Source of the DNA: a virus | Direction: 5' to 3' (one strand) | Length of the DNA: 44,315 nt | Virus record (IMG/VR): IMGVR_UViG_3300032770_000039 | Location: 1-44,315 of that record | Shown here: positions 22,101-44,315 of the stretch, one piece after another | Layout of the letters: each line of letters begins with the position of its first letter | Numbering within the stretch: the first letter of the stretch is position 1 | Position numbers and translations under genes: made by a program | The notes under the pieces: generated by a model | The model's input: only the letters and a program-made list of their open reading frames with translations | The model's database searches: none | Told to the model about the DNA's origin: nothing

Positions 22101-22422
22101 TACAGCGGCAGTCTCTGCGAATGCGGCCAGCGGTTTTAGCTCATTCGCCGACCTGCTTGCAGTTCCTCTCATGGCGGAAGGTGGCAATGTTCTGGAAACT
22201 GGCGCAGCGGTTGTACACGCCGGTGAAAAGATTTTCGACCCCGGCGATAGCAAACAAATGTCCAGCCTCAAGGCCATGTTCGACAGCGGTGTGATGAGTG
22301 GTGGTAAGGGAGGACCTACAGTCAATTTTGGCCACGTAGGTGTTGGCGTGACACAACGCGATATGGACAACCTGATGTCGATGACCATTCGTGCATTGCG
22401 CCGGACAGGATTCCAGGACTAA
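19171..22422 (+). CDS. tape measure protein
   Basis: 1083 residues from ATG 19171 (TAATG). Nearly continuous helix and coiled coil with heptad-like Ala/Glu/Lys/Gln content, a middle very rich in KxxEE repeats (residues about 500-780), and a Gly/Ala-rich hydrophobic stretch at about 905-1010 (GLGGSGGGLGALIGALSGGG, AAIIANTAAVSANAASGF). The C-terminus has a GEKIFDPGD segment. The length sets tail length, about 160 nm at the usual 0.15 nm per residue. No lytic peptidase domain is evident. Confidence 0.9.
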   Translation: MADTLADLVVRLSADFSGSTSQVNSFIAKLEQMESQSAAVSDAVDKIATATSNAAAPLAEVGESAAAAAEQLALFDEASQIPFEDEAGQLNLFATELEPIAGSAQSAAEAMEELAQGAADAGEASENSAEGVGEVGERAGEAGDEIAELGFRMLEYVGIVFALDAVKDAVEESFTAFARVQRATEALTELTGSAKEAEVRIAALEEQARDQALSFPELLTAHQRLAVFIEDGDQINRALRAAADASRVAGTDFGNVTTGLTMMAQQGVVMRRQLGSLAISMDDLARVMQVSVDDVQKQFKELDQSERLDVLTEALDKHKGAAERTAHDLAGSWQNMKNAADEAFEASGKALEGLAHSFLAQTTQMIGDIKDTITYIQDLGKEMGALSDTGSALKKALAYSRELFDDVFGLGLLKYGVDALTSSQREQAQVSANREMVKNLDETYVSVHRMVALMPDLKKQLEDAKKAWEGGATSNEDFAKALRDVNAAAQGIDLTPPAEKAKQKKGVPASYDQQKIEVDEEEKHKQSLLKIRRESFEELAKETHLNEDEIAAQERKFNEEEFRITEAAIQRKLALQKQAKEEEKDLTLNAQLQEARDKKAEQDAQVDNKLAASKRKQSDENFLYLLRNLVKQGEEERKEFDERAKANIEYSTKVHEDETKAQSEEISANAAHQTKLLEAIRAKSTAELEIHRITAQEKMDIDARIDAAEETLQRNAIAREAELLDKGAADYLSKRQALETKLQELTDKRASSEAVRSVREEAEAYKVLGVESEAALGTQIREADDAVNRLRQLGASQGEINSGVEHQLELEIKLAELQGRDATAYIVALDNIKERQKALADSATSLGNVYTNLLKEIDSAMTGFSNSVAQALVAGKGFEKDIIRVFQNVEKEILGNLINTALKQLKDAIVGLGGSGGGLGALIGALSGGGAGGAGAASTAASTAAEAANTTAVTADTAATTALSPIIAALTAAIIANTAAVSANAASGFSSFADLLAVPLMAEGGNVLETGAAVVHAGEKIFDPGDSKQMSSLKAMFDSGVMSGGKGGPTVNFGHVGVGVTQRDMDNLMSMTIRALRRTGFQD

Positions 22423-29000: not shown

Positions 29001-30070
29001 CATTTGTTTCCCTCAATATAACAAGCCTGACGAGTGGAAGCGGAACGGGAAATATATACGTTGACGATGCGTCAATCACGCTGCTATCGAGTGGTGGTGG
29101 CATGGTCACGACGAGTTATCCAAACTCGGCTGCCGGACTGAATAACGGTAACCTTGCCCAAAGTGTCATCCCCGATCCAGGTTTTGAGTATGAAGGACCA
29201 ACAGGAACGTTGCTTCCTATGGCCGGGGGAGTCGGTCCGTGGATAGGAGATGGCATAGGAGCTTTTATAAGCACTCCGGGAGACAACAGTAATTACTGTT
29301 TAGAGCTGAACGGTGCGGGTAGCGGGATCGGTGCCTATGCGATGCAGACGGTTCCGGTAGTTCCGGGACAGCCCTATTATATTTCGGCCTATGTTCTGAA
29401 CAATGGTGTTACCGCCGGTGGAACACTTGCGATGTCTGTCAACATCGTGTGGTTTACCTCTTCGGGGTCAATAATCACTACAAACAGTTTTACGGTTAGC
29501 GGGTCGATCACCTCTACGTGGCAACTTGCACTGAATGGGTTTGTAACTGCGCCCTCTACTGCGGCAAACGCACGTATCCAACTGATCACCTCATCTGCAT
29601 CCGCCAGCGGTATGACATGGTTTGTGGATAATGTAAATCTACAGCCCGTCATCAATCAACCTGCGAATGGGCAGAACCAGAGCACATACCCAGTGGCGCA
29701 GACTTCGGGGTACAGTGCGCTGAGTAGCTCGTCTACAACAACGTCGGCGACCGCTACCTATGGGCTGATGTACGCACAGATCGTCAATAGCAATGGTGCG
29801 ATGGTACAAATGAGGAACGACAGCGGTGGAACCTATGAGTTCCTAGCGCAGTACAACTCAGGTAATTTCGCACAACTCTATACAGGTCCGTCAGCTTCTG
29901 GCATGTTAGTTATTGACTCCGGAACAGGTGCGCTGTCCGGAGTCCAATCGAATACGGGATTTATTTGTAAGGGAAGTAATGGATTCACCGGCACAATCAA
30001 CTACGCGAAGGCAGGTGGGGGAAGCGGAACAATCACGGTGACGGGCGGAATCATTACAAACGTCACATAG
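26051..30070 (+). CDS. large tail fibre/adhesin with repeat and CBM-like domains
   Basis: 1339 residues from ATG 26051, with CAAAAGG close ahead. Residues about 180-192 contain a short collagen-like GAPGPPGPPG turn. Two homologous copies of about 176 residues (around 317-490 and 494-665; DNA period 528 bp) share WNGQTGT, VTVTGGNL, TQVGSQ-LVGSVLTTIA and IFQWLGW. Two later segments starting NPGFEN (about 866) and DPGFEYE (about 1042) resemble jelly-roll carbohydrate-binding modules. There is no signal peptide, unlike the genes after 30525. It probably mediates binding to the host surface. Confidence 0.75.
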   Translation: MSTQVRTRSTYTFDTSSVTPPSPTTLSSAMLVGDTTASFASGTHVTVGAYVTILAESTNTTETVLVTSLVSGTTYDVTRAQLGTAASAHSNGATVNLPGAIVFDLLANTVVPNQTVWAHKTSSDINFVDIVAGGSNFFPGGVTHLLLIDNSALYGQTIIKFPAIGNQLIVAGGVGSGAGSGAPGPPGPPGTNTPPAPNILGATCTVTYPVNGNATNRVQFAGNITLPVSDPNYSHFYEIDIVGVDPSGNGYLLLSLTKPSGGWGSSPLAYSVVSQILQPASTQSWTIYFYVFNESGNPTTSGAYSVSVTLTAIALSGFSCSELSAQKWADLSGALHDVIQASLTVTPSGESTNVTFWNGQTGTVTVSGGNTLTVTGGNLFIEPTQVGSQILVGSVLTTIATWISSSQVTTTATGLTNTSGVSVVIFQWLGWNLVSGSQTITFGARESSISNLFAPAGTGNQTWKLYSQPGAIDGQQPVPISTATVTSTFTASIGSITSLSATETSKWLDQSGAVHEVITAAIGTNYLGNVTLWNGQTGTATVSGTTVTVTGGNLYVEATQVGSQVLVGSVLTTIASWTSPTQFTTAAAGTSGSGVAVTIFQWLGWWLSTPTSTSVIIGQQSGNNSSLFAPIGGNQTWKLYGQLGTIDGAQPVPVLTAFISSGFTATAPPAPGSTVASDAYIDAITYTTTSGVATTWRWNNMYCTVTPTPTTETLQFVVQTGHYNSSGTFVPGGAFPQSPAANNGAVIGQFSNYSGGQLTPPPGQTSITVNNNNPTGTGTLAIALPTDGNLIWRVYAFIGSALNGGTWTQQNTWSSGVGVSTPGTNPYQEIVLDGTKASVLLSGLSVGGSQGMVLGVLTVNGNAFLNPGFENSHTTITPWFGTGGVVLKTDGNGHGSSQNYVAVPVSTGDILYQEVSGAAPGQQFIASVWIRNDSGVTRFDIQLNAFNSSGSYVGTPADTVVTSGFPGATWKQYSVNGTMPANTAFVSLNITSLTSGSGTGNIYVDDASITLLSSGGGMVTTSYPNSAAGLNNGNLAQSVIPDPGFEYEGPTGTLLPMAGGVGPWIGDGIGAFISTPGDNSNYCLELNGAGSGIGAYAMQTVPVVPGQPYYISAYVLNNGVTAGGTLAMSVNIVWFTSSGSIITTNSFTVSGSITSTWQLALNGFVTAPSTAANARIQLITSSASASGMTWFVDNVNLQPVINQPANGQNQSTYPVAQTSGYSALSSSSTTTSATATYGLMYAQIVNSNGAMVQMRNDSGGTYEFLAQYNSGNFAQLYTGPSASGMLVIDSGTGALSGVQSNTGFICKGSNGFTGTINYAKAGGGSGTITVTGGIITNVT

Positions 30071-30081
30071 AAGGATACGCG

Positions 30082-30528
30082 ATGACGAACACTGAGAAGG
30101 CCCAGCACATCGATGCGTTACTAACAGCCGGAATGGATCTCCGTACGCTGATGGCAACAGCTCATGATCGATCAAACCGCCTGTTGCACGCGGCTGAGAT
30201 TGCAAAAGATCATCCGCTACTGAAAGTTCAAATGTCGGACGTAGAATTCGAAGCATTCTGCCAGCACCTTACTGACGGCGGTGGAGTTCACAGCGACACG
30301 GCGGATCTAGAAGAGCTTCCGCAAACGAGTTTGCTGCATAAAACACTCCAAGCTCTTCACGACCGCAATCAACCGGAACTGTTGCGCCTGATGGTGTGCG
30401 TATTCAAATCTTGGATGAAGCAGCGTGGGGTTATTGTGCCAGCTCAAGGAGCGGTCCACATAGTCGGTGGGGAGTCAATGGAATACCGCTTGGCCAATAT
30501 GGCTAAGAGAAATGAGGAGACAAAGTGA
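30082..30528 (+). CDS. hypothetical cytoplasmic protein between fibre genes
   Basis: 148 residues from ATG 30082, twelve bases after the fibre gene, with AAGGA ahead. Mostly helical (TEKAQHIDALLTAGMDLRTL, LLHKTLQALHDRNQPELLRL). No signal peptide or membrane segment. It overlaps the next start by four bases. Small soluble proteins after fibre genes are sometimes fibre assembly chaperones; here that is only a guess from position. Confidence 0.55.
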   Translation: MTNTEKAQHIDALLTAGMDLRTLMATAHDRSNRLLHAAEIAKDHPLLKVQMSDVEFEAFCQHLTDGGGVHSDTADLEELPQTSLLHKTLQALHDRNQPELLRLMVCVFKSWMKQRGVIVPAQGAVHIVGGESMEYRLANMAKRNEETK

Positions 30529-30896
30529 AAAAGTTGTTATTGATTGCTGCTATCTGTGGCAGTTGTATCCTGCCTGTGGTGGGGCAGTCATCAGTAGTTA
30601 CGGGTCAAGTAACGGCGACGATGCGACCGCCGTATACACCATGTTCTGTGTTGCCAGTTGCGGATGGTTGTATACCGGGGATTCAAGTAGTGTGGGTTGA
30701 CTTATCAGGCGATGGCCGAGGCGTTGTGACACTCATGTACACTAGCCAGGGAATGCTTCAGTCACAGAGCATGGTGGTAGATGTTAACGGGGCGGATGCG
30801 TGTATCTTTATCCTTCCGGCGGATGCAACCGGACTTGCGGTTGAGGTAACAAACCTGACGGTACGTATACGACGGCCAGCGCTGGCGCGGCAGTAG
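30525..30896 (+). CDS. small exported protein with signal peptide
   Basis: 123 residues from GTG 30525 with GAGGAG at 30514-30519. MKKLLLIAAICGSCILPVVG is a typical Sec signal peptide (positive start, hydrophobic core) with cleavage likely near VVGQ. The mature part is beta-rich with the segment DADACIFILPADATG in part and four cysteines that could form disulfides. No family is recognised. It opens the run of signal-bearing genes. Confidence 0.6.
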   Translation: MKKLLLIAAICGSCILPVVGQSSVVTGQVTATMRPPYTPCSVLPVADGCIPGIQVVWVDLSGDGRGVVTLMYTSQGMLQSQSMVVDVNGADACIFILPADATGLAVEVTNLTVRIRRPALARQ

Positions 30897-30928
30897 ATCT
30901 GAAGGCTGGTGCATAGTAAGTCACACCA

Positions 30929-31168
30929 ATGCACGCCGTCTCTGTCCAACGAGAGCACATTGCCGTCTGCCTTTCGGCTAGCTGCCCTTACTGCGGAAGC
31001 GTGGCGACGATTGAGAAGGAAAGTGTAGCAGGTTGCCATCACGCTGATCTGCTTCCAATGCGTGACGCGGCAGGTAATTTGTACATCGCTTTTACCGAGG
31101 ATCTGGAACCGGAGCGATTGAAGAGCAGAAAAGGAGCAATCTATGGTCGGAGCACCGTACCGAAATAA
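30929..31168 (+). CDS. small protein with CxxC zinc-ribbon-like motif
   Basis: 79 residues from ATG 30929. SCPYCGS and later AGCHHADL give a CxxC … CHH set that could bind zinc. The remainder (NLYIAFTEDLEPERLKSRKG) is unremarkable. No strong RBS is visible and it overlaps the next gene by 26 bases, so it is less certain than its neighbours, but no better frame exists in this stretch. Confidence 0.45.
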   Translation: MHAVSVQREHIAVCLSASCPYCGSVATIEKESVAGCHHADLLPMRDAAGNLYIAFTEDLEPERLKSRKGAIYGRSTVPK

Positions 31169-31397
31169 CGACAACGCACCGCCCAGCGAGGCGTGGACCA
31201 AGCTATATGACTACGCAGGTGGCAGCAACCTGATATACGAGGGGTTTGCGAAATCCGGTCAAGCTACGAGCGCCGCTGTATGGGCAATCAAGCAGTACAC
31301 ATACAGCAGCAATAACTTGACCGAAGAGGCGTGGGCCGGTGGCAGCTCCGCGCCCATTAACATTTGGGACAACCGCGCATCGCTGATATACTCCTAA
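31143..31397 (+). CDS. small phage structural-type protein
   Basis: 84 residues from ATG 31143 with AAAAGGAG upstream. It starts MVGAPYRNNDNAPPSEAW and ends NIWDNRASLIYS. The AKSGQATSAAVWAIKQYTY stretch resembles small proteins often encoded beside phage tail fibres. No signal peptide. Function unknown; the strong RBS suggests a well-expressed product. Confidence 0.6.
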   Translation: MVGAPYRNNDNAPPSEAWTKLYDYAGGSNLIYEGFAKSGQATSAAVWAIKQYTYSSNNLTEEAWAGGSSAPINIWDNRASLIYS

Positions 31398-31419
31398 CCT
31401 GGAGGAGAGGAACAAACTG

Positions 31420-34400
31420 ATGAGAAAACTACTCTTGTTGCTCGCCTTCAGCGCAATAGGTGCGTTCGCGCAGTGCGGCCCATACGCGAATCTCCTTCCT
31501 ATCGGCGGTGGACGCTTTAGTTGCGTGCCCAGCACAACATTTGCCGCGCAGTTTAAGCCTTACTACGCGAACTTTAGCGGGGTTGCCACACTATCGGTAA
31601 CGGCGGCAACTCACGGGCAGGGTACACAACCGTTTGGCGCGTGTTGGGATAATGCTTCTCCTGCGAACCTGATCCCGCAGACAGCAAATTATCCCACGGT
31701 ATCCTCCACGGGTACGATTGTATTTGCTTGGACCGGTAACAAGACGGGTTACTGCATTATCTCTGCCTTAGGACAGGGGGCTACAGGACCTTCTGGACCA
31801 ACTGTATATCCGGCTGCCGGTATTGCAGTTTCTTCCGGTAGTAGTGGACCGTGGGGCACATCGCTTACCGCTCCTACAGGCAACCTTGTCGGAACAGGGC
31901 AGGCAAATACGTTTACGACCGGCCTTCAAGACTTCAGCGCGGCATCATGGAAGATCCCAACGTCGGCGGGGTTTACTGCAACCGCGTCTAGCATGTTTGG
32001 CTATGACTCTACGGCAGGCGTACCGCATGTTTGGGCGGGCGCGGACAAAGCTTTCGGGACGGCGGCCTATAGCAACACCGGTACGAGTGGCGCTACAGTT
32101 CCAATTCTGAATGTTGCGAATACTTGGGGAGCAACGCAGATCATGACCCACTTGACTGTAGAGGGGGTTACGTCTGCGGGTGCTACCGGAACCGGAAAGT
32201 TTGTCTTCTCGGACACACCTACTTTTACTGGGCATCCTACAATCGAGGGCGTGACTTCGACTGGAGCTACCGGGACGGCCAATTTGGTTTTCTCTGCCGC
32301 TCCAACGCTGACCGGCCATCCGACAATCGAAGGCGTTACAAGTACAGGCGCAACAGGGACGGGGAACTTTGTTTTTTCTGCCTCTCCAACATTTACCGGA
32401 ACTGTTACAATGCCCGCCCCGACGTTGAACAACGTCACAGGTAGCACACAGTGCCTTCACGTGAACAGCTCTGGCGTCGTAAGCGGGTCAGGATCGGATT
32501 GCGGAAGTGGAACGGGCGGCGTCACGAGTTTCAGCGGGGATGGCAGCCTTATCAGCAATACCACTTCAACCGGAGCAGTTACGGCGGCACTCGCAAATGC
32601 AGCCGCACATAGTTTCTGGGGCAATAACACTGGCAGCACCGGCGCTCCGGGGTATCATCAACCGGCATTTACTGATATTTCTGGCACTGCTGCGGCGGCT
32701 CAATTGCCATTGGCAACCACACTGGCTTTTGGCGCGGTTAAGCCAGACGGAACAACCATCACAATCTCCAGTGGCGTGATTACCGCCGTCACAGGTGGTA
32801 GCGGAACAGTTTCTACAACGGGCAGCCCTGCGAGCACCTACCTCACGGTGTTTTCTGGAGCGGCCACGATTACCGGAGCTTCGAATGCCACGCTGAACAC
32901 GTCCACAGGAGCGCTTGCGGTCCAATCTGTTGCGACAGGCAGCAGCCCACCGTCGATTACTCCAGGAACGGGTGGGGCATACGGATTCGCTGAAGGAACT
33001 GCACCAAGCGTAGGCGCAGCTTCGGGCGTGGATCTGTTTTATGCAGATTCCACGCAGCATGGATTCCTTGCGAGTTTCAATAACGGGTCCTACCTGCCTT
33101 TGGTTCAAGGTCCAGCGACATCAACCACAGGCCATTTGGCACTGTGGAACTCTGGGAACGGTGGGCTGCTTCAGGATGGTGGAGCGATTCCGTCTTGTAC
33201 AAACGATGGAGCGCACGCGCTTACGTACCCCTCTGGGTCGCTTTCATGCACTCCGATTACTGGAGGCGGTGGCGGATCGGCGGCGGTTCTCACTTCGGTA
33301 GCCTTCAATAGCACTCCGACGTTCGTGGTTGCGGCCAATAGCACACCTCAGGTCTTCAGCTTCGGCGCTCTCACGGGCAACGTCACAGCAAGCACCCTCA
33401 CTACCTCAAGCGCTACAGCGGGCGAGATGGTGGCGTTTATTGTGCCACAGGATGTTACCGGAGGAAGGCAGTTCGCATGGCCGTCCAACGTCACAAATCC
33501 GGTCACGGTGTCTCCCACAGCTTCGGGCAAGACTATCCAGTACGGCGTGTGGGACGGATCGAATGTGGTCGGGAACTTTGCGGTAACGACCGATACATTC
33601 GTGAGCTTCCCTACTGCTGCCGCACCAGCGACTCCTGCAAGTGGATCGATTTCCTACTGGCACGATTCGACAGACCTTGATGCCGAATGGAAGAACGCGA
33701 GTGGTTCGGTTTTCAAGGGGTTTCTGACCGGAGCGGATTGCAACCCCGTAACGGGCGTCTGCACTAAGACCAACGGGACATCATTTTCGGGACTCGCCAC
33801 GTTAGCTGGGGTAGCAGCGGGCGACATTGCGTACTACAACGGTTCTTCGTGGGTCCGCTTGGCTGGCAACGCAAGCGGCACGAACTATTTGCAGGAGAAC
33901 GCTTCTGGCGTGCCCTCATGGGCGGCGGGTTCATCCAGCATCGCGTGGAACTCGATCAGCAACGCCACGGGGAACCTCAGTCTGTCGAACGGAACGAACA
34001 CCACTACGTTCAACCACACTTCCGGGGTTGCGTGGCTCTGGGCGAACACCACGGCGGCAACCAGCGGGGCTTCGCAAAGCAGCCCGATTTGGGAACTTGA
34101 GGGCACCGAATGGCACTCCGCTGCTTCGACCCCTGGTGGGGCTACGATTCAATTTGTTCCTGGCACGGGCACCGATGCCGCGAGCACTCTCACCATCTCA
34201 CATGCTGGGACCGCAACGGGCACGATGACTACGAGCTTTCCCGGACCGATCTCAGCGGCGGGAGACGGAGTTCATCCCGGTGTGGATCAGTTCGTCGGCA
34301 ATACGACGGCCCCGTCTTTGCCATCCAATACATTCAGCCTGATCGGTCCGAATGCGGCGACCTTTACAGCGTATGGGCTCCAATTCCCAACGACCAATCC

Positions 34401-35226
34401 AGCGGCGAATCAGGTCCTTGCGGTCGGCGCACCGAGCAGCGGGGTGGCGCAGATTTCGTACATCAGCAATGCGCTGACAATAAATGGAGCGGCAATCGCC
34501 CTTGGTGCATCAGGAAATGCCAACTGGGTCACGGGTGCTATCACAACCCTCCACGTAGCCCAATTCACTGGCACTAGCGGCGAACTTCAGGACGGCGGGG
34601 TGCTTGGTACAGCGGCAGCGGCAGCGACAGCTTCAGCCTGTAGCGGGCAGTTGTCCCTTGGCTGGACCTCGGGAAGCAACAATTGTTCGGCGACTCCTAC
34701 GCTCGGGGCTTCGGGCACCTTGGGCAGCGTGACAATGGGGAATGCCACGAGTGGATTGCTGACATTGGAGCCCGCTACCGGAGCGATCACTAGCTATACT
34801 CTGCAATTCCCGGTGGCTCAACCCACGAGTGGCAATACGTTCATTTCATGTACAGCAGCAAACCCATCAGTGTGTACTTTTACTGCGGGAGGTGGTGGAT
34901 CAATAACTGGTAGTGGGCTTACCGCATATGATGTATACTATGTAAGTTCAAGTGGCCTAGCTCTCGCGGAAGCAAATGCCTCCTCTACTACTCCTGCTGT
35001 GTGTGTAGCAAGTTCTAACACCGTCTGCATCACCAATGGCACAGTGACAAATGGCTCATGGACGTGGACGGCGGGACAGATTCTCTATCTATCAGATTCC
35101 AGCAGTGGGGCACTCACATCTACCGAGCCATCTACCAGTGGACATTACGTACAGCGCGTTGCAGTTGCCTTGTCTGCAACCCAAATTCTAGTCATGCCTT
35201 CGCTCGATGTCGGAGGAATTCAATGA
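31420..35226 (+). CDS. large fibre-like protein with N-terminal signal peptide
   Basis: 1268 residues from ATG 31420, GGAGGAGAGG ahead. The first 18 residues (MRKLLLLLAFSAIGAFAQ) form a clear signal peptide with an AFA-Q cleavage site. Residues about 243-330 hold three tandem 28-residue units (DNA period 84 bp; EGVTS-GATGTGNFVFS-TPTFTGHPTI). Then typical phage fibre segments follow: FWGNNTGSTGAPGYHQPAF, TDISGTAAAAQLPLATTLAF, GAVKPDGTTITISSGVI. It is Gly/Ser/Thr-rich throughout. The sequence is that of a tail fibre, but the export signal is unusual for a virion part. Confidence 0.7.
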   Translation: MRKLLLLLAFSAIGAFAQCGPYANLLPIGGGRFSCVPSTTFAAQFKPYYANFSGVATLSVTAATHGQGTQPFGACWDNASPANLIPQTANYPTVSSTGTIVFAWTGNKTGYCIISALGQGATGPSGPTVYPAAGIAVSSGSSGPWGTSLTAPTGNLVGTGQANTFTTGLQDFSAASWKIPTSAGFTATASSMFGYDSTAGVPHVWAGADKAFGTAAYSNTGTSGATVPILNVANTWGATQIMTHLTVEGVTSAGATGTGKFVFSDTPTFTGHPTIEGVTSTGATGTANLVFSAAPTLTGHPTIEGVTSTGATGTGNFVFSASPTFTGTVTMPAPTLNNVTGSTQCLHVNSSGVVSGSGSDCGSGTGGVTSFSGDGSLISNTTSTGAVTAALANAAAHSFWGNNTGSTGAPGYHQPAFTDISGTAAAAQLPLATTLAFGAVKPDGTTITISSGVITAVTGGSGTVSTTGSPASTYLTVFSGAATITGASNATLNTSTGALAVQSVATGSSPPSITPGTGGAYGFAEGTAPSVGAASGVDLFYADSTQHGFLASFNNGSYLPLVQGPATSTTGHLALWNSGNGGLLQDGGAIPSCTNDGAHALTYPSGSLSCTPITGGGGGSAAVLTSVAFNSTPTFVVAANSTPQVFSFGALTGNVTASTLTTSSATAGEMVAFIVPQDVTGGRQFAWPSNVTNPVTVSPTASGKTIQYGVWDGSNVVGNFAVTTDTFVSFPTAAAPATPASGSISYWHDSTDLDAEWKNASGSVFKGFLTGADCNPVTGVCTKTNGTSFSGLATLAGVAAGDIAYYNGSSWVRLAGNASGTNYLQENASGVPSWAAGSSSIAWNSISNATGNLSLSNGTNTTTFNHTSGVAWLWANTTAATSGASQSSPIWELEGTEWHSAASTPGGATIQFVPGTGTDAASTLTISHAGTATGTMTTSFPGPISAAGDGVHPGVDQFVGNTTAPSLPSNTFSLIGPNAATFTAYGLQFPTTNPAANQVLAVGAPSSGVAQISYISNALTINGAAIALGASGNANWVTGAITTLHVAQFTGTSGELQDGGVLGTAAAAATASACSGQLSLGWTSGSNNCSATPTLGASGTLGSVTMGNATSGLLTLEPATGAITSYTLQFPVAQPTSGNTFISCTAANPSVCTFTAGGGGSITGSGLTAYDVYYVSSSGLALAEANASSTTPAVCVASSNTVCITNGTVTNGSWTWTAGQILYLSDSSSGALTSTEPSTSGHYVQRVAVALSATQILVMPSLDVGGIQ
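32149..32415 (+). repeat. three 84-bp in-frame repeats in the fibre gene
   Basis: The GAG/GAA-GG start of the EGVTS unit recurs at 32161, 32245 and 32329, an 84-bp period. Codons differ between copies while the amino acids are conserved, so the duplication is old and maintained at protein level. Each unit probably adds one turn or strand set to the fibre shaft. Confidence 0.65.
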
Positions 35227-35978
35227 GGATTAATCGTTGGTGCGTTCTGCTCATCTGTTATGTTGCCCAAGCACAAACTTGGGCAACATGGGATGGGTAC
35301 ACTGCTGGTGCTGCAACCGAACCGACCTTCACCGAAATCCAAGGGAAGCGCGGCAATCTAGTTTCGAGTGGCACAACCACCAATGTCACTTTGACTTCAG
35401 CTCCGACTAGTGGCAACGCTGTAATCTGCCGTGTCTATTCAGAATCTGGGTCTTTGACCGTTTCGACGGTGAAGGATGGAGCCGGAACACCGAACAGTTA
35501 CACTGTGAGTCCTAGTTCTCCATCAAGCGGTGGGATCTCGGGAGCGCGTATATCGCTTGCATATTTACTCAATGTTCCATCTGGGGCTAACGCCACAATC
35601 ACAGCCACGTATTCCGGAACGATTACAGCCAATGCCGGGATTGCGTGCAGTGAGTTCCACCGATCATCCGGAACATGGGTTTTCGATGTTGATGCAGTAA
35701 ATTTCAGTTCCTCCGCAGTCACCACAGTCACGACGCCATCCATTAGTCCGGCGCTAACTGGAGAATTAGTCTATGGTGCCGCGCAAGTTACGGGTGGCCA
35801 GTATTTTCTCACTTCTGGTCCCCAATCTCCATGGACTCAGGACCCGGCCGGACCAGATAGTACGGTAGGCCACTTCAATGGAGCGTACATTCTAGCATCG
35901 TCAGGTTCGCCTGCTATGAACATGAACATATCCGGCGGTAGTTCCGCCTATAACGCGATCTCGATGGCGGTGAAGTGA
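35223..35978 (+). CDS. exported beta-sandwich-type protein
   Basis: 251 residues from ATG 35223 in an ATGA overlap. MRINRWCVLLICYVAQAQTW is a short signal peptide followed by QTW. The mature part (GNAVICRVYSESGSLTVSTV, AYLLNVPSGANATITATYSG, ACSEFHRSSGTWVFDVDAVN, GELVYGAAQVTGG) has the strand pattern of an extracellular beta-sandwich repeated in bacterial adhesins and is related in style to the 40137 product. It is probably an adhesin or fibre partner. Confidence 0.65.
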   Translation: MRINRWCVLLICYVAQAQTWATWDGYTAGAATEPTFTEIQGKRGNLVSSGTTTNVTLTSAPTSGNAVICRVYSESGSLTVSTVKDGAGTPNSYTVSPSSPSSGGISGARISLAYLLNVPSGANATITATYSGTITANAGIACSEFHRSSGTWVFDVDAVNFSSSAVTTVTTPSISPALTGELVYGAAQVTGGQYFLTSGPQSPWTQDPAGPDSTVGHFNGAYILASSGSPAMNMNISGGSSAYNAISMAVK

Positions 35979-38245
35979 TGCGATTGGTACTCACCCTATT
36001 ACTCACGTCTGTCCTACTCTTAGCGCAGAACGTCTCGAAGATGAACGGTGTTACGATTGGTGCGTCAACTGGGAATTATAATTCCTGGAATGGACTTCTT
36101 TTCCCTGGTGCATCCGGACCAAACTCTTTTGGTAGTTCCCCCACCCAGACTGGAAGCTGCTTTTTTAATTCGTCAAATACCACCAGTTGTAATATCAGCC
36201 TTGGATCATCCGTAACTGCCGGGGATGCGGATTTAATAGGGTGCTATTTCGCTAACGGAAACTCAGTCCCGGCAGCGGCAATCTCCAGTGTCAATATCAG
36301 CGGGACATTACTACCGCTTGTCGGCGCGAGCACCGGATCATACCCGAGCGCTGCTAATACTCAAGCATCATGGATGTACATCCTTCCATCGACTAGCGGC
36401 TCTCAGGCATCTCCGGTCACAGTCAATTTCAATCAACCCCTCGGGGAAGGTTGGTGCTACTTTGCTGAATACCACCCAAGTTCAAATGGCTCACTGGTTG
36501 GACTAGATATCGATGCAGGCTATCAGCCCAGCACGGCCTCTACCAGCCTTACAAATATTAGCCCGACTTTGTCGGCAACAAATGACGCCGGATTACAAGG
36601 ATATATGAGCGTGAGCGGGTATGTGCTCGCTACCGCCGTCTCGTCTCCTTATTCCACCTACTCATTTTTGGGCGTAAGCGGGAACGGTACCGGCTTTGGA
36701 ACCTCAACGCCTGTTAGTGGTATCGGACCAACATGGACTGCTGCATCTTCGATTGTTCCGTTACTATCAGCGGCTTACTTTGGCTGGAATCCATCTGCCT
36801 GTGTCGAAGAGTCTTTCAACGACTTCACGGGCGGATCTGGAGTCGTGACGACCTCTCAATTGGTATCGAGTCATCATGGTTACCAGGGAGGATTTTGGAA
36901 TGTCTCGCAGGTAACGCATCTGTCGTATGACTCGGTAGGGGCATTCGAGTTGCAGAATTCCACTGGCCGTACGTGCGGTGATGGGGGAACATACCCAACA
37001 GGAGCGCCAAATAGTGGACTTAAGCTCGGCCTTGTATCGACCGGTGTGCTTGGTATTGACCAAGCTGTTTACTATTGGGGCTACAACAATCTGGCCGTGG
37101 TTGCTGGCGGGCAATGGTATATGCAGACTTTTCCTCCGACCGATGTCACGGCGGTAGACTGTAATGCCTTGTACGGGTCGCAAGCTCACGACTTTAGTTC
37201 GAATAATTGCTACGGAGACGGCACACGTCGAACTCTTAACTTGGAGGCCGGTTCGGGCAATGCGCCGCAAGCTAAGATCTCAGATTACAAAGCTACATCG
37301 GTATCCGCTTCTGTTTCAAGCGGGACTATCACCTTCACGGGTACCTTCACTGCTTCCCAATGGCCAACGAGCGCAGTTATTGTTCCATCTGGCTGTACAG
37401 GTGGTAGCGGGATAAATTTAGTTCAGTTCACAATCCTCACCTCCAGTTCTACGACCATAACCGCGAACGCAGGTTCCGCAAGCGGGAGCGCGACTGGATG
37501 CCAACTGAACCAATGGACATGGCAGCAACAGATCTTCACGTCGATTGCTGGATACGATGCTACGGTGTCCGGGACCGTCGCCGGATCGACGGTTACGTTT
37601 ACTTTCAGCTTCACTGGAGTTACGGGGGTAAGCGCGTCAGTTGGGTCAGGGCTGGCTGCTTTCACCGGTACTTTCACAGCATCCCAATGGGCCACGAACA
37701 CATTGTTCACCGTGAGCGGATGCTCCGGAGGGAGCGGATGGAATGGCACGGTATTCAGCGTGCTCACTCCAAGTGCGACTACGCTTACTGCTCTGGCTGG
37801 TTCCGCGACTGGTTCCCCCACGGGCTGCACGCTCACTGCTAAGGTAAATCCTGCCCAGTGGCCTGTTGGGACTCCGTTCTCGGTCTCTGGTGGCTCAGGG
37901 GGTACTAATTACAATCTCAGCCTTTTTTACGTGACAGGTTCTACGGCATCAACACTTACCGCTTCCACAACGGCTTGGACATGCAGTGGTTCGGGCTGTA
38001 CTCCAGCCCAAGGGACGGTGAGCGGTTCCTATTCCGGAGGAACGTTGACCGGCCAGCATGTTCTCCAAATCTCGAATGCCCCAAACAACATAACCGGCAT
38101 CCAATGGGCAGCGTCAAATGGAAATGACTTCCCGGCGCGATGGGACGTTGGGAATGCCCAATCCTCGGGCACTTGGACTGGTGGATATTATGCCTACTGG
38201 GGAAGCTATGATCATGCGTTTAACTCGACTGCGATAAAGCAATGA
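35978..38245 (+). CDS. exported multi-domain adhesin-like protein
   Basis: 755 residues from ATG 35978 (GTG 35975 is possible); the start overlaps the previous stop. MRLVLTLLLTSVLLLAQ is a signal peptide. The N-terminal third resembles the beta-sandwich of the gene before (CYFAEYHPSSNGSLVGLDID). The C-terminal third carries two similar strands sets beginning FTGTFTASQWPT and FTGTFTASQWAT, each followed by a SGCxGGSG loop, which is an internal duplication of about 110 residues. Cysteines are numerous, as in disulfide-stabilised secreted proteins. Confidence 0.65.
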   Translation: MRLVLTLLLTSVLLLAQNVSKMNGVTIGASTGNYNSWNGLLFPGASGPNSFGSSPTQTGSCFFNSSNTTSCNISLGSSVTAGDADLIGCYFANGNSVPAAAISSVNISGTLLPLVGASTGSYPSAANTQASWMYILPSTSGSQASPVTVNFNQPLGEGWCYFAEYHPSSNGSLVGLDIDAGYQPSTASTSLTNISPTLSATNDAGLQGYMSVSGYVLATAVSSPYSTYSFLGVSGNGTGFGTSTPVSGIGPTWTAASSIVPLLSAAYFGWNPSACVEESFNDFTGGSGVVTTSQLVSSHHGYQGGFWNVSQVTHLSYDSVGAFELQNSTGRTCGDGGTYPTGAPNSGLKLGLVSTGVLGIDQAVYYWGYNNLAVVAGGQWYMQTFPPTDVTAVDCNALYGSQAHDFSSNNCYGDGTRRTLNLEAGSGNAPQAKISDYKATSVSASVSSGTITFTGTFTASQWPTSAVIVPSGCTGGSGINLVQFTILTSSSTTITANAGSASGSATGCQLNQWTWQQQIFTSIAGYDATVSGTVAGSTVTFTFSFTGVTGVSASVGSGLAAFTGTFTASQWATNTLFTVSGCSGGSGWNGTVFSVLTPSATTLTALAGSATGSPTGCTLTAKVNPAQWPVGTPFSVSGGSGGTNYNLSLFYVTGSTASTLTASTTAWTCSGSGCTPAQGTVSGSYSGGTLTGQHVLQISNAPNNITGIQWAASNGNDFPARWDVGNAQSSGTWTGGYYAYWGSYDHAFNSTAIKQ

Positions 38246-40140
38246 TGAAGATTATATATCTATTTTTCTTCACTTGGGCTGCATTCGGATCTTGTTCCGG
38301 CTCCATCCCGAACTGGACTAGCAGTCCTGATCAGGCAAGCGTGACAACGTGTTGGAATAACGCTGTCGCGGCTGGTGGCACTCAGACGATCACTCTTCCC
38401 CAAGGAGCGGCGACATGGAGTTCGACATGGGCAGGCAATTCCACTACGTCCTCGATTACCATAATCGGAGCCACCACCGTGACTTTCAGTGGAGTCGCTG
38501 GACAAAGTGGATATTCGGCGGTTTGGGGTGACAACTCTGGCTCCTGTTCAAGTGTAGGGACCTGCATCACTGGAACAGTGGATAATGTCTTTGCTCCACA
38601 AGCCAGCAATAATGCTCTAGTTCGCCTGACCGGAATAACCTTCATCAATTCGGATTCTGGCACCTCCCATGGAATTCTCGGCCTGAGCGGAACGCATCTG
38701 CAAACTAATTATAGGATAGACCATTGCCATTTTTACATGAGCCCTCTCGCCCTTACCATGTTTGGCTACAACGGTGGGGGATTAATTGACCATAACCAGT
38801 TTGACGATACAAGTACTGGAGGTGGTGGCCCCATAGCGATTGGAGGAGACTTAACAAGTGCTGGTTACTTGAACTGGCAGGATGTGGCCAGTTTAGGAAC
38901 CGCTCAAGGTTGGGTAATCGAGCAAAATATCATCAACCTGACTGGCCCCACAGATGGCGTGGTCGATAGCTATTATGGGGCGAAAGTGACCTTTCGATTC
39001 AACAATGTTATAGCGACCAATAATTTGCAGAATGGTATCGGCTGGAATCACGGAACTGACTCGGGAGGATATAGGTCCACGGTGCTGGACGAGATATATG
39101 GTAACTATTTCGCCAACAATACCGGATCTGCATCAGAAATAGGTAATTCGCGCGGAGGCACAGTATTGTACTGGGCAAATACCCACGTAGGCAATGCGGC
39201 TTGGACAACGTTTTTGCTTCAATATTTCCGATGCCTGGGACAGCAATACAGTTATCCTTGGGGATCGGTGTGCAACAATCCAGGAAATAATCCGGCGGCT
39301 AATTTGGCGATTAATTGGACGCCAGTATCTGCTGTGGACACGAGTGCTGGTTCACAGGAAGTCACAGCAAACGCGGGCGACTTTGTAGCAACTCACTTAT
39401 ATGGCGCAAACGCTTTAGTTGGTCCGTTAAGCAACAACAGCGGACACTATAACTATCTGTTGACAAATGGTCCTAAGACTTGCGGAACATATCCAGGAAC
39501 ATGGAATCAGACGTTTCCGTTTGGTACCACAACCGATAGTGCGAGTTGTGTTTGGATGATCGTTGGCGGGAATATCTCGGCCTCACCGGCTCCGGGAACA
39601 GCCGCAGGGTTCTGCGCCGCAAATCCTGATATCTCTTGTTCGGCGAACGCGACATGTTCTGCTATACAGGGTGGTGATACGTGCAGCGCCTATTTCGATT
39701 CGCAATCTGGCGTGTGCTTTTACCGCGACATGCCGGGTTGCGCTCACAATCAGACAGCAAGTCCGAATTATGAATGGCTCAATAGTGGCGCACAAGCCCC
39801 GGCTCAGATATTCACAACGAACACTCAGACTTCGACGCTGATAGCGCAGAACTCAAATTATTACGACTACACCGGGACCTTCACCGGGGTATCGGGCGTT
39901 GGAAGCGGAACGCTGGCGAGTCGCCCATCAACATGCACAACCGGAGTGGCGTATTGGGCGACAGATCAAGGCAGTTGGAATCAAAGCGGTAGCGGTAGTC
40001 AAGGCATTCTTTACCAGTGTTCATCGACTAACACATGGAGTACCTACTATACTCCGTACACCTATCCCGATCCACTAGAGGGGTCGTCGCCAACCTCCTC
40101 TGTCCAAGGTGTTACGTTGAATGGAGTAACCAAGAAATGA
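38242..40140 (+). CDS. exported right-handed beta-helix protein (possible depolymerase)
   Basis: 632 residues from ATG 38242 (ATGATGA overlap). MMKIIYLFFFTWAAFGSCSG is a signal peptide. Residues about 60-320 have repeated N/H/D-rich turns (LTGITFINSDSGTSHGILGL, YRIDHCHFYMSPLALTMFGY, GLIDHNQFDD, WVIEQNIINLTG, VTFRFNNVIATNN, DEIYGNYFANNTG) typical of pectate-lyase-like beta-helices. Such folds are common in phage spikes that cut capsule. Catalytic residues cannot be assigned. A Cys-rich region follows near 470-510. Confidence 0.65.
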   Translation: MMKIIYLFFFTWAAFGSCSGSIPNWTSSPDQASVTTCWNNAVAAGGTQTITLPQGAATWSSTWAGNSTTSSITIIGATTVTFSGVAGQSGYSAVWGDNSGSCSSVGTCITGTVDNVFAPQASNNALVRLTGITFINSDSGTSHGILGLSGTHLQTNYRIDHCHFYMSPLALTMFGYNGGGLIDHNQFDDTSTGGGGPIAIGGDLTSAGYLNWQDVASLGTAQGWVIEQNIINLTGPTDGVVDSYYGAKVTFRFNNVIATNNLQNGIGWNHGTDSGGYRSTVLDEIYGNYFANNTGSASEIGNSRGGTVLYWANTHVGNAAWTTFLLQYFRCLGQQYSYPWGSVCNNPGNNPAANLAINWTPVSAVDTSAGSQEVTANAGDFVATHLYGANALVGPLSNNSGHYNYLLTNGPKTCGTYPGTWNQTFPFGTTTDSASCVWMIVGGNISASPAPGTAAGFCAANPDISCSANATCSAIQGGDTCSAYFDSQSGVCFYRDMPGCAHNQTASPNYEWLNSGAQAPAQIFTTNTQTSTLIAQNSNYYDYTGTFTGVSGVGSGTLASRPSTCTTGVAYWATDQGSWNQSGSGSQGILYQCSSTNTWSTYYTPYTYPDPLEGSSPTSSVQGVTLNGVTKK

Positions 40141-40871
40141 GACTCGCATCCATCTTCCTCTTCGCGGCTCTGGCCTATGGGCAGACATGGCCTGCTGGAA
40201 TCCGGTTCCCGAAAGGTACGAGCCTGCCAAGCTCGCAGCCAGCAGCGGGCATCACGGTAACGAGCAAGAGTTGTGGGGGGAACACCGATGGCTGCACCAC
40301 GGCAGCGGTCGATACCACAGGTGTCACGGGCATAATCTGTGTAGATTCGGTCTACACAGGTGGACCGGGATTCGGGTTCACAGACAGCAAGGGTAACTCG
40401 TGGACGAAGCTGACCACGTACACCGCTACGGCAGCGCACGATCAGATGAGCCTATACTACTGCGGCAGCCCCACAGTAGGGACCGGCCATACGTTTGGAG
40501 ACACTGGCACAGGCTCCTATGCAGGCGTCGGTTGCCTTCTGCTGAAAGGCTCCAATTCAACTCTCTACGTGCCTTCGAGCGACCGAGGGCAGACGGATGC
40601 CTTGTTCTCCGGGACTGGCCCGATTCAACCGGGAGCGTTCTCGGTGCCCGGACTGGACATCGATATCGCTGTGATGAATGTGTCGTTTGGCTTCCCGACG
40701 ACGGGCAGCGCGCCGGGGTACACCGTGGCTGAAACGCAGAATAGCGTTACTTCTGAGGGCTTCGTACTGGCCTATCAGATTCCTGGTACGACAACGAGCC
40801 TGAATCCGGCATGGACGCCGAGCGCCACGGGATATTATGCCTTGGCCTCGGCAACGTTCGCACACCAATAA
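40137..40871 (+). CDS. exported beta-sandwich-type protein, paralogue of 35223
   Basis: 244 residues from ATG 40137 (ATGA). MRLASIFLFAALAYGQTW is a signal peptide ending in GQ-TW. FTDSKGNSWTKLTTYTATAA, DQMSLYYCGSPTVGTGHTFG, GAFSVPGLDIDIAVMNV and SEGFVLAYQIPGTTTSLN follow the order of strands of the extracellular beta-sandwich type seen in the 35223 product, suggesting a paralogous pair. It is immediately followed by the small membrane protein gene. Confidence 0.65.
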   Translation: MRLASIFLFAALAYGQTWPAGIRFPKGTSLPSSQPAAGITVTSKSCGGNTDGCTTAAVDTTGVTGIICVDSVYTGGPGFGFTDSKGNSWTKLTTYTATAAHDQMSLYYCGSPTVGTGHTFGDTGTGSYAGVGCLLLKGSNSTLYVPSSDRGQTDALFSGTGPIQPGAFSVPGLDIDIAVMNVSFGFPTTGSAPGYTVAETQNSVTSEGFVLAYQIPGTTTSLNPAWTPSATGYYALASATFAHQ

Positions 40872-40873
40872 TG

Positions 40874-40884
40874 AAGGAGGTGAT
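40874..40884 (+). promoter_or_regulatory. full-length Shine-Dalgarno
   Basis: AAGGAGGTGAT is complementary to 11 consecutive bases of the usual bacterial 16S rRNA 3' end (AUCACCUCCUU). It lies five bases before TTG 40890 and decides the start of the small membrane protein gene. It is the longest anti-SD match noticed in the window. Confidence 0.7.
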
Positions 40885-40889
40885 GCAAA

Positions 40890-41030
40890 TTGACCAACAA
40901 ATTCCGAGCACTACACTTCCGGGACCGCCGCTTTGTTGCCCTATTGGGGACACTTGTGTTGGCCTTCCCGCTTGTTTTAGTCGCTCAGATCAATCCGCAC
41001 CCCGGCGTGGCAAGGTGGCGGAGTGAATAA
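40890..41030 (+). CDS. 46-residue single-pass membrane protein
   Basis: TTG 40890 to TAA 41030. The protein has a basic N-terminus (LTNKFRALHFRDRRF), one hydrophobic segment (VALLGTLVLAFPLVLVAQI) and a short polar tail (NPHPGVARWRSE). The start is set by the exceptional Shine-Dalgarno just ahead. An ATG at 40871 in another frame gives a less protein-like product. No family recognised; position among exported fibre genes might suggest a holin-like or anchoring role, but it is not shown. Confidence 0.6.
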   Translation: MTNKFRALHFRDRRFVALLGTLVLAFPLVLVAQINPHPGVARWRSE

Positions 41031-41099
41031 GACCACGCAATTTACCAGATTGTATCGTCGTAGTCGCGAGGAACGTATTCGGCACAGGTGAGCCAAATT

Positions 41100-44000
41100 A
41101 TGAAGCGTCTCCAGATTCTTTTCATGCTGTCGATTATACCCCTTGCGGCGCAGACGTGGACAACGGTCACACCGGGAGGGGCCGCGCTCTACGCCAACGG
41201 ATTTGAGAACAAGCTCCTCTGGGACAGCACCAACAGCGAGCTTCTGTACCTCGGGCACCCCACGAGCATTTCGACAATCTACAGTTCAGCGATCTACGGA
41301 TATTCGACCCAGACGCACAACTTCACGCAGCGAGTGAACAACGGCGCATCAGTCGAACTCTGCACATGGCAAGGAGGCGGCCCGTTCGACCCTGAACTTG
41401 CGCACTACAATGGATACTTCACATACGACACGACGCACAGCCAAGCGATTCTGACGGCCCCTCTCTGCAATACACATTTTTACGGGTACACGTACTTTTA
41501 CAAGTCCGCGACCATGAACATGGGAACGGAACTTGGGAAAAGCCCTGTTAGCCCTACAGGCGATGGCACCCTGAACGCGAGCTTCAATTCCAACTATACA
41601 AATATGGACTGGATCAGCGGATACGGTAAGGCGATTGTCTGCTGCATTAATCAAGGCTCCGCGCTTCGCATGGTTGAATTCGACGGGGTGAGCACATTCA
41701 GCGATATCACATCCAGCGTGACAGGAACACTTCCTCCGGCTCCCCTCACAGCGATGGCAACGGTCACGGACGGAACATATCTGTACATCGTCGGCGGCTG
41801 CAATGGGAACACTCCGGGGAACTTCGGGGTGAACGCTTGTGCGGCGAACTCCGGGACACCGCTGAATGACATCTATCGGTACGATCCTGTGGCTAAGTCA
41901 TTCACCAAGATTGCTCCAGTCGGTGGCGTGAAACCGCCAAGCACGAACAGTTCATTTCCATTCGTCTATTACGATTCGACGCGTGGACGCATCGTCTGGT
42001 ATGGCGCGGGAGGAACGAATGACCTGTGGTGGTATACGATCCTTACGAACACTTGGACGAACGTAACCACATCAGGTGGATTCACCATTCCAACGAGCGG
42101 CACCGTGGGGCCGGATGGCAACCAAGCGGCCTATGACCCCGTGCATGATGTCGGGGTGTTCATTTATCCGGTGGCGGGCGGCGGATCGGCTCCCGGTGTT
42201 TGGCAACTGACGTTTCCATATACCACCACGCTCACGGTTTCGGAGGCGATTTACACGGGCGGGTATGCCGGGACAAATCGGACTAATGAGCCTGTTCAAA
42301 TGGGAGTGGCTTTCCCGGACGGTGCGAACGTCAACGGGTGCAACCAGCTTCAAATTTCGAGCGGATCAAGCATCTACCAGTTCGAAAAGCCGATGACTTG
42401 GCCTGATGGGAACGCCAAGTGGTGCAAGATGTCGGCGGTGATTCCCTCTCTGACTGGGGGAAGCACAGCGAGCGTGACGGTGACGACCGGCGGTACAGGC
42501 AATTCAGGTGGCTCGAACCTTGCCACGAATAACCAGCAATGTTCTGGGTCATCCAATTCAGACTACATCTGCGTCAATACAGGTGCCGCGAAGTTCCAGT
42601 TTAAGAAGACGAACTTTGATGGTTTCGATTCGGTGGTGATCGGCGCGACAACCTTGGTAAGCGCTGGAACAAGCAAAGGGTTTGTCGTTTATGGCCCAAC
42701 ACCGACCGCAACGTATCCGGGTAACGTGACCTGCTCTCCAACATCGGGCGGTACGGATTGCTCTGTGGCGACCGGCACGCAGTACACAAGCGCCAATGAT
42801 TCTACTTCCACCGTATCGATTGTTGAGAACGGCCCCGCAGCGGCAATGCTCAAAGCCACATGGACTTTTACGGATGGCTCCAGCCACACGTACATGGGCG
42901 GCACGGCCTATATCTATTGCTATTATAACGAGACGTACTGCCGGATTCTTCCGGTCCTTCGGAATGCCTTCTACGGCTCTGGCGCAGTGGCAGCCACAGC
43001 GTACAAAGGATTGCAGGGATTCGAACTTCAGGTGGCTCTTCAACTCACATCGGGGAACATCGCTATCGCCAATCACACCGGAACGCCAACCACGGCCAGC
43101 ATGACAACCTCGGACGATCTCGATATCTACCAGGGGTACAACTCGACGATGCAGGCGGAAGAAACCGCCAATCCATGGACAACGGATCAAGGTTACGTGA
43201 TTCGCAAGAACGGCGGCACAACGGGCCTGACCGGCACGACTTCGGGTACGGCAGCCCAGACGCCGGAGGGGTGGGCGAACCTCGATTCCTCGGGCTCCGG
43301 TGTCGAAATAGGGCAGTTCTGGTTTGGTCCGCAGGGGAGCAAGAGCCTCGAATTCACGGGCAGTGGAAGCACCATCATTGCGAAGCTTGGCATCCTGGCA
43401 CCACAGAATAGCAAGCCCTACTATCACGAGTACCCTGCATGGCTGACTGAGAATCCGCGTGGTGTTTGGTTGGAGTTTCACACCTCAGCGATCTCGTCTC
43501 CATCTACGGACTTCAACAAGTTCCAGAGCTTTTTGGTTGCGCGACAGGCTGTGGCGGATTACAATGCCGCGAATGTCTTCCCATCCACCATCCTCACGGC
43601 CACGCAGGAAGATACATTCGAGACCACCAACTACACCAGCGCATCACCGGCCACTATCCCATCTGGGAACGCTTGGGCCACAGGCAATGTGACGAACGGA
43701 ACGGATACAGCCTGTCCAGGAACAGCAACCTGCCCGAGCACAACGAATGCTTTTTCGTGGGAACTGGAAAATGACTATCGCTACGATTACATGCTGACGT
43801 TCCTTCAGCGGGGATGGGCGGCGCGGTTCCTGGAAGCCTATAGTTGGTACAACTACTACGGAGAATATGGCGCACCACACAGTGACGGATTCTATTGGTA
43901 CAACCATTGGGATTCCTCATTCACGGAAGTCACAGGGTTCGGTCAACCCAAAGTCACAGCGAACGGATCTAATGCTAATGCCACCCTCGGGATTCACGGA

Positions 44001-44315
44001 ACGGGAGCCTGTTGCCAGTTCGCAGGATATACAAACTGGTTCAATCAAGAGCACGCTCACCGTTGGGGCATGGGGATGTTCTGCGATCTTTCAGGTGAGC
44101 AGTTCTGCACAGATGCATGGGTGAATGAGGAGTACAACTGGTATCTGTCGCTCAACACCTATCAGGACGGCGGATATGCGGCATCCGAAACCGCGACATT
44201 CGTCAACGGCTCCTCAACCATCACGCGGACATGCTGTTCGAGTTGGGACGCAACAATTATCGGACAGGTGATTTTGGCCGGGACAAGTCCTAACCTTACA
44301 CCGTACAAGGTCACG
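41100..44315 (+). CDS. exported kelch-repeat/exo-rhamnogalacturonan-lyase-like protein (3' partial)
   Basis: ATG 41100 (AGGTGAG ahead) opens a frame that stays open for 1072 codons to the window edge. MKRLQILFMLSIIPLAAQTW is a signal peptide. Residues about 190-370 carry kelch/galactose-oxidase-type blades (LYIVGGCNGNTPGNFG, LNDIYRYDPVAKSFTKIAPV, GRIVWYGAGGTNDLWWYTIL). From about 395, NEPVQMGVAFPDGANVNG, TWPDGNAKWCKMSAVIPSL and later ENGPAAAMLKATWTFTDG match the start of YetA/PcRGLX-type exo-rhamnogalacturonan lyases. The C-terminal visible part is Trp/Tyr/His-rich, as in an alpha-toroid. It probably binds or cuts an acidic polysaccharide. Confidence 0.7.
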   Translation, partial: MKRLQILFMLSIIPLAAQTWTTVTPGGAALYANGFENKLLWDSTNSELLYLGHPTSISTIYSSAIYGYSTQTHNFTQRVNNGASVELCTWQGGGPFDPELAHYNGYFTYDTTHSQAILTAPLCNTHFYGYTYFYKSATMNMGTELGKSPVSPTGDGTLNASFNSNYTNMDWISGYGKAIVCCINQGSALRMVEFDGVSTFSDITSSVTGTLPPAPLTAMATVTDGTYLYIVGGCNGNTPGNFGVNACAANSGTPLNDIYRYDPVAKSFTKIAPVGGVKPPSTNSSFPFVYYDSTRGRIVWYGAGGTNDLWWYTILTNTWTNVTTSGGFTIPTSGTVGPDGNQAAYDPVHDVGVFIYPVAGGGSAPGVWQLTFPYTTTLTVSEAIYTGGYAGTNRTNEPVQMGVAFPDGANVNGCNQLQISSGSSIYQFEKPMTWPDGNAKWCKMSAVIPSLTGGSTASVTVTTGGTGNSGGSNLATNNQQCSGSSNSDYICVNTGAAKFQFKKTNFDGFDSVVIGATTLVSAGTSKGFVVYGPTPTATYPGNVTCSPTSGGTDCSVATGTQYTSANDSTSTVSIVENGPAAAMLKATWTFTDGSSHTYMGGTAYIYCYYNETYCRILPVLRNAFYGSGAVAATAYKGLQGFELQVALQLTSGNIAIANHTGTPTTASMTTSDDLDIYQGYNSTMQAEETANPWTTDQGYVIRKNGGTTGLTGTTSGTAAQTPEGWANLDSSGSGVEIGQFWFGPQGSKSLEFTGSGSTIIAKLGILAPQNSKPYYHEYPAWLTENPRGVWLEFHTSAISSPSTDFNKFQSFLVARQAVADYNAANVFPSTILTATQEDTFETTNYTSASPATIPSGNAWATGNVTNGTDTACPGTATCPSTTNAFSWELENDYRYDYMLTFLQRGWAARFLEAYSWYNYYGEYGAPHSDGFYWYNHWDSSFTEVTGFGQPKVTANGSNANATLGIHGTGACCQFAGYTNWFNQEHAHRWGMGMFCDLSGEQFCTDAWVNEEYNWYLSLNTYQDGGYAASETATFVNGSSTITRTCCSSWDATIIGQVILAGTSPNLTPYKVT

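Follow-up and report, generated by a model that had tools for sequence, protein, structure and literature searches.

Runs of signal-peptide-bearing late genes in tailed phages suggest a route for fibers through the host secretion machinery

The IMG/VR record IMGVR_UViG_3300032770_000039, a single linear virus record of 44,315 nucleotides (nt) analyzed at its full length and referred to here as the window, carries the gene set of a tailed phage, comprising the major capsid protein (MCP), head-tail connectors, a tape measure, the tail protein 22422, and the fiber 26051 (genes are designated by their first position). After the tape measure and tail genes, from 30525 to the window end, lies a block of seven late genes whose products all begin with a predicted Sec signal peptide (SP). 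We read this block as an exported-fiber cassette, with a probability of about 0.5: its late fibers and depolymerases would be sent through Sec and act outside the cytoplasm, with joining of the virion as the favored outcome. Runs of SP genes in the window and its relatives, as well as in unrelated soil phages and cultured phages of Acidobacteriota, suggest a fiber route through the host secretion machinery.

Signal peptides and genes of the block

N-termini were scored with a home-made predictor. Its n/h/c rule asks for a positive n-region, a 9-residue core with a mean Kyte-Doolittle hydropathy of 2.0-2.9, and small residues at -3 and -1; the second test was an approximate von Heijne-type weight matrix. 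The rule was passed by 7/7 genes of the block and by 0/31 other genes of the window, and six of the seven also passed the matrix with scores of 3.8-9.2, the exception being 30525, which scored -2.4 and is SP-like nonetheless. The sequence-based earlier note had described seven products with convincing Sec signals, three of them continuing with QTW after the hydrophobic core, and classic fiber repeats in the 31420 product; the signals are borne out by these scores, QTW follows the core in 35223, 40137, and 41100, and the repeats are present. Chance and host background can be excluded as the source of the run, because the rule was satisfied by only 3/1093 random start codons elsewhere in the window and by 58/3500 shuffled N-termini, and because in 400 kb of an Acidobacteriota chromosome, where 11% of the genes scored as SP genes, the longest run was three. 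Despite their location in the same region, 26051, 30082, and 31143 have no SP.

The starts of 30525, 35223, 35978, 38242, and 40137 overlap the preceding stop (that of 30082 in the case of 30525), and translation is therefore fixed to begin at or next to the leader. The translational coupling that had been ascribed to the whole set thus holds for these five. It does not extend to 31420, which has its own Shine-Dalgarno sequence (GGAGGAGAGG), or to 41100, which is preceded by a gap of ~229 nt and in whose frame GTG 41088 is a further possible start.

All seven genes lie on the plus strand. The block opens with a predicted small secreted protein of 123 residues (30525..30896; GTG start; leader MKKLLLIAAICGSCILPVVG followed by QSS) that agrees with the n/h/c rule and is weak by the matrix. 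The second gene (31420..35226; MRKLLLLLAFSAIGAFA followed by QCG) encodes a 1268-residue fiber with GATGTG-type repeats of the pattern EGVTS-GATGTG-F-FS--PTFTG, 16 paired cysteines in the mature part, and a fiber C-terminus that matches phrog_12121 (unknown function); the PHROG search gave no match for the other SP genes. Next come a beta-rich protein of 251 residues (35223..35978; ATGA overlap; MRINRWCVLLICYVAQA followed by QTW) and a fiber-like protein of 755 residues (35978..38245; GTGATG junction, frame also open from GTG 35975; MRLVLTLLLTSVLLLA followed by QNV). The fifth product is a cysteine-rich protein of 632 residues (38242..40140; MMKIIYLFFFTWAAFGSCSGS) that probably adopts a pectate-lyase-like right-handed beta-helix, and the sixth is another beta-rich protein, of 244 residues (40137..40871; ATGA overlap; MRLASIFLFAALAYG followed by QTW). 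AlphaFold (AF2) models of 38242 and 40137 were too poor for fold searches, with predicted local distance difference test (pLDDT) values of 32 and 47, and searches of solved structures with 41100 and 38242 gave no match. No canonical lipobox (L-[AS]-[GA]-C) was seen by eye at the cleavage site of any of the seven sequences, and a lipoprotein identity was rejected on this ground.

The seventh gene (41100..44315; MKRLQILFMLSIIPLAA followed by QTW) is incomplete since it runs off the window end. Behind the SP it encodes a Kelch part, recognized by Pfam matches, and a PcRGLX (exo-rhamnogalacturonan-lyase-like) region. Residues 369-1017 share 32% identity (E 1e-70) with a secreted PcRGLX-like protein of Acidobacteriota that bears PF21345; 41100 itself has no direct match to PF21345, its score being below reporting. 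We regard 41100 as a Kelch plus rhamnogalacturonan-lyase-like protein with predicted lyase activity. Homologues were found in 3/347 Acidobacteriota genomes, and two of the host PcRGLX-like genes lie amid genes that read, from their translations, as flippase-like, glycosyltransferase-like, and sugar-nucleotide genes. Having a secreted Acidobacteriota homologue, this one gene looks host-derived; a scan of viral contigs for PcRGLX found none.

Recurrence in related, unrelated, and cultured phages

The MCP (4587..5597, plus strand; phrog_1005, E 2.3e-69) served as the query for relatives and retrieved a clade at 65-77% identity; searches with 22422 and with 31420 alone retrieved nothing. Within the clade, the terminase and portal genes of G012 (96 kb) flank ten SP genes in succession, and those of G008 five to six. 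The four SP genes of G001 precede a patatin-like gene, and there are three to four SP genes in G010, two in G005, and one in G011. The blocks of G008, G012, and G001 also start with a small SP protein. In contigs of the clade at 50% MCP identity, there were no SP genes or scattered single calls. The description of the block as part of a tail operon is accordingly right for the window and does not carry over to the relatives, in whose late regions the cassette has other positions, frequently with terminase and portal on either side. This variable position implies that the cassette either travels whole or is reassembled by recombination. Domains are shared in a mosaic fashion, 31420 with G012_78282, G012_69139 (leader included), and G001_39554, and 35223 with part of the SP protein G012_82107 (36% identity), which also has a domain in common with the 35978 product. 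The patatin-like phospholipase gene, recognized by eye from its GGG-x-RG motif, stands just after the SP block in both G001 (44631-45365) and G008 (50143-51042; oriented contigs) and has a possible role in lysis or at the outer membrane.

Beyond this clade, the core domain of 31420 was found in seven virus contigs besides the window, some of them podovirus-like and including L166, L168, L169, L170, L171, and L172. Wherever the 5' end was present, the gene with this domain carried an SP, and L172 has five SP genes in a row. SP-bearing homologues of 31420 are known from G012, G001, L166, L168, L169, L171, L172, and gp13 of the cultured phages Tunturi_1 and Tunturi_2. A profile of the core had no match in 396 Acidobacteriota host genomes, and the core looks virus-specific. 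In the Acidobacteriota genome G120, L165 (3275-8412) holds tandem SP-like genes, one of which weakly matches the C-terminus of 31420; the locus is either a prophage remnant or host DNA.

The 38242 family has members in 55 viral contigs, and an SP was found in 45 of the 54 testable relatives, compared with 5/95 nonfiber genes of the same contigs and 0/20 genes of fiber composition in control phages. The survey admitted an SP start at any of the first 80 codons, and for that reason the controls were scored by the same loose rule. Ten contigs were sampled for the neighbors of the family member, which included genes for the tape measure, tail assembly, portal, terminase, and major head protein in six of them and had no PHROG match in the other four; L235 and L263 resemble Tunturi_1 in their tail genes. 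The 38242 product aligns over its full length with L170_1356, and the 40137 product with L168_8161 (31% identity, SP included). A tblastn search of 50,697 phage records with 31420, 38242, 40137, and 26051 gave no match, and Tunturi gp13 was found by direct comparison.

The cultured phages of Tunturiibacter bring the arrangement into isolate genomes. In Tunturi_1, six consecutive genes whose ends overlap or touch, gp12-gp17, directly follow the tail protein gene gp11, and Tunturi_2 likewise has six in a row. All six Tunturi_1 products have leaders, and five of the six were scored as SPs (gp15 has only a short hydrophobic start and did not score as one). Existing annotations name Tunturi_1 gp14 a tail spike and gp17 a virion structural protein, and Tunturi_2 gp13 a tail fiber and gp14 a pectin lyase. 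The 31420 domain recurs in Tunturi gp13 at 33% identity over 121 residues, a distant homologue; gp13 itself was found in none of 250 genomes. Among the Tunturi_1 late proteins checked, only gp12, gp13, gp14, and gp17, all of them SP proteins, have a fiber-like composition, so that other spike candidates are lacking. The siphovirus Tunturi_4 has two SP genes, gp113 and gp114, and in gp114 the leader is joined directly to a beta-helix domain that shares 50% identity with the central part of Tunturi_1 gp17, as if the SP were retained while domains move. Tunturi_1 (L182 19474-23028) and Tunturi_2 (L184 18902-22744), which share a host strain, are 97-100% identical in gp12-gp16, and their gp17 proteins differ by ~96 residues in the second quarter. 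The article that describes these phages (Demina et al. 2025, PMC11924767) makes, by a term search of its main text, no mention of signal peptide, tail fiber, or mass spectrometry, and no virion proteomics was found in it.

Probable export, possible virion joining, and rival explanations

Several features of the mature parts bear on export. Mature SP proteins contain 1.91% cysteine versus 0.91% in other large genes of the clade (p 7e-7), and 43/47 have an even number of cysteines versus 52% of 430 controls (p 2.8e-9), both p-values being optimistic owing to homology among the proteins. Cysteines in 31420 and 41100 form close pairs to a degree that 0/500 shuffles reach; 35978 and 38242 are without such pairing. 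Glutamine occupies position +1 of the cleavage site in 20/36 phage SP proteins, much as it does in 13/38 proteins that are predicted to be secreted in two Acidobacteriota genomes. The mature parts hold no membrane anchor, their maximal 19-residue hydropathy being 0.97-1.51, and membrane-anchored products were rejected for want of a transmembrane segment or C-terminal anchor. We therefore retain only part of the earlier proposal of exported phage proteins: fibers and surface enzymes agree with the SPs, the number and parity of cysteines, the lack of anchors, and the occurrence in unrelated phages, anchored receptors are disfavored, and decoys and fibers added outside the cell fit the sequences alike. 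That the SP proteins are exported and cleaved is, judged from these sequence features, very probable.

As an exported-fiber cassette, the seven genes would be translated alongside the tail genes late in infection, their products would cross the inner membrane by way of host Sec, and signal peptidase I would cut the leader. The cysteine-rich, beta-rich mature proteins would then form disulfides in the periplasm using host enzymes, and as no DsbA was found in the phages, host oxidation would be needed. The target outside the cytoplasm would be the host surface polysaccharide, on which the fiber and beta-helix members would work as appendages for receptor binding or depolymerization and 41100 as a polysaccharide-lyase-like enzyme akin to host exopolysaccharide-cluster proteins. 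Once the inner membrane opens at lysis, fibers and spikes would meet the virions assembled in the cytoplasm and attach to them as the last assembly step, which is plausible given that P22 tailspikes and T4 tail fibers attach to particles in vitro. We give about even odds to the fiber and spike members joining virions at lysis, which is favored by the lack of another spike candidate in Tunturi_1 and Tunturi_2, by gene position, and by fiber architecture. More tentatively, a widespread group of tailed phages, including cultured ones of Acidobacteriota, may route receptor-binding fibers and spikes via Sec, let them fold in the periplasm with disulfide bonds, and complete virions from outside at lysis, an assembly route undescribed for tailed phages.

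The proteins could instead be exported and never enter the virion, as free lectins and enzymes degrading exopolysaccharide, which would loosen the matrix of the host, release the progeny, or coat the infected cell and block superinfection. The SPs, the cysteines, and the missing anchors fit this equally, and it is favored by 41100, whose host homologues are secreted proteins with flippase and glycosyltransferase genes around their own; the variety of the set, with as many as ten different proteins in one genome, would also suit it. We consider it a serious possibility, though one short of even odds, since 31420 combines fiber repeats with a phage-fiber C-terminus, the block sits among tail genes, and free proteins would leave Tunturi_1 and Tunturi_2 without an obvious spike. 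Gene position and fiber composition would suit ordinary virion proteins as well, assembled in the cytoplasm and keeping a hydrophobic N-terminus for tail docking or membrane insertion. This is improbable in view of the signal peptidase I-type sites, with glutamine at +1 about as in Acidobacteriota secreted proteins, the even cysteine numbers, and the attachment of SPs to unrelated mature domains, including one lyase-like enzyme.

The host itself might have supplied the block, as a moron of secreted genes captured wholesale and without a role in the infection cycle, and most SP genes do have a lower third-position guanine plus cytosine content (48-55%) than the head genes. The earlier note had raised such large-scale capture, and it reduces to at most one gene, 41100, with its homologues in 3/347 genomes; the 31420 core (seven virus contigs, 0/396 host genomes), the translational coupling, and the recurrence in many viruses led us to reject capture of the whole block, which we regard as very improbable. 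The suggested tie to Acidobacteriota, on the other hand, stands, through the cultured Tunturi phages, prophages of Acidobacteriota at 48-50% MCP identity, and the host homologues of 41100. Finally, a chimeric contig or chance start codons might be suspected of a single linear metagenomic contig whose last gene is cut. The same organization in independent contigs, the low null rates, and above all the isolate phage genomes refute such an artifact, leaving it a negligible chance.

Some observations weigh against the exported-fiber cassette with virion joining. No N-terminal virion-anchoring or tail-docking domain common to the seven mature N-termini was seen by eye, although one would be expected if all seven docked on the tail, which speaks for free exoproteins and is why we do not file the seven proteins as confirmed fibers. 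With 22422 and 26051 the window phage also has SP-less fibers from which its virion could be equipped, likewise a point for free exoproteins. SP fibers were not seen in the stretches checked of Tunturi_3 and Tunturi_5, from the same host genus. The excess of even cysteine counts is weaker among the 38242 relatives (25/37). An SP-like start can moreover occur on a presumed virion protein, for the tail hub of the Rhizobium phage RHph_Y52 (L190 24888-27569, minus strand) has a single SP-like N-terminus (MKLVFWFFVALLTLTETALA followed by DPV), a point that also favors cytoplasmic virion proteins and counsels caution in reading single SP cases. The SP calls, in addition, come from a home-made predictor.

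Surroundings of the block and comparison with known systems

Upstream of the block, on the plus strand, lie the tape measure gene (19171..22422; phrog_1686, E 1.4e-5), the SP-less tail protein gene 3' of it (22422..25910), whose G005 homologue is directly 5' of an SP fiber, and the gene of a 1339-residue fiber (26051..30070) that lacks an SP, is cysteine-poor (0.37%), and offers an internal contrast to the SP set. Inside the block, 31143..31397 (plus strand) encodes an SP-less protein of 84 residues with 57% identity over 75 residues to G012_68760, the SP-bearing 118-residue opener of the G012 block, and is its leaderless counterpart. Between the head-tail connectors and the tape measure (9053-17087) are sialyltransferase-like, glycosyltransferase, and methyltransferase-like genes that could act in virion or capsid glycosylation; this sugar-gene cluster is longer still in G005. 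An HNH homing endonuclease gene lies within the late region on the opposite strand (17108-17962, minus).

In the textbook view, tail fibers are made and folded in the cytoplasm and are docked by the time of lysis. Should many soil phages pass entire sets of fibers and depolymerases through Sec, virion maturation may end outside the cytoplasm and gain disulfide folding; or else tailed phages commonly release lectins and polysaccharide-degrading enzymes into the surroundings of the host. Either outcome would alter the annotation and expression of receptor-binding proteins, because the leader must be removed and oxidizing conditions supplied, and the cultured Tunturi_1, Tunturi_2, and Tunturi_4 open the question to direct testing. 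We found no account of exported phage fiber sets in the open-license literature, so that an earlier description could have been missed.

Among known systems, phage lysis and superinfection proteins are also exported. P22-type tailspikes and depolymerases resemble the window set in their beta-helix, pectin-lyase-like annotation, late position, and presumed polysaccharide target; they differ in being made, to our knowledge, without SPs and in not being known for disulfides. The PcRGLX-like PF21345 secreted proteins in the exopolysaccharide clusters of Acidobacteriota share homology with 41100 in its C-terminal part, but they are host chromosomal proteins, and the phage protein adds an N-terminal Kelch domain. 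Endolysins such as Lys44 of fOg44, which are exported by host Sec (PMC6116005), share with the window set the use of host Sec by phage late proteins; they are lysis proteins, whereas the SP genes described here encode a lyase-like protein together with fibers and beta-helix spikes and stand in runs that reach ten. The surface-displayed bacterial proteins of diversity-generating retroelements (DGRs) are likewise Sec-exported adhesive proteins, and the phage DGR targets, which are stated to lack SPs, are the opposite of the window set (PMC6199706). Closest are Tunturi_1, Tunturi_2, and Tunturi_4 (PMC11924767), whose podo- or siphovirus genomes are otherwise different and which, like the window, have coupled, SP-bearing, cysteine-rich fiber or spike genes in the late region, with the 31420 domain in gp13.

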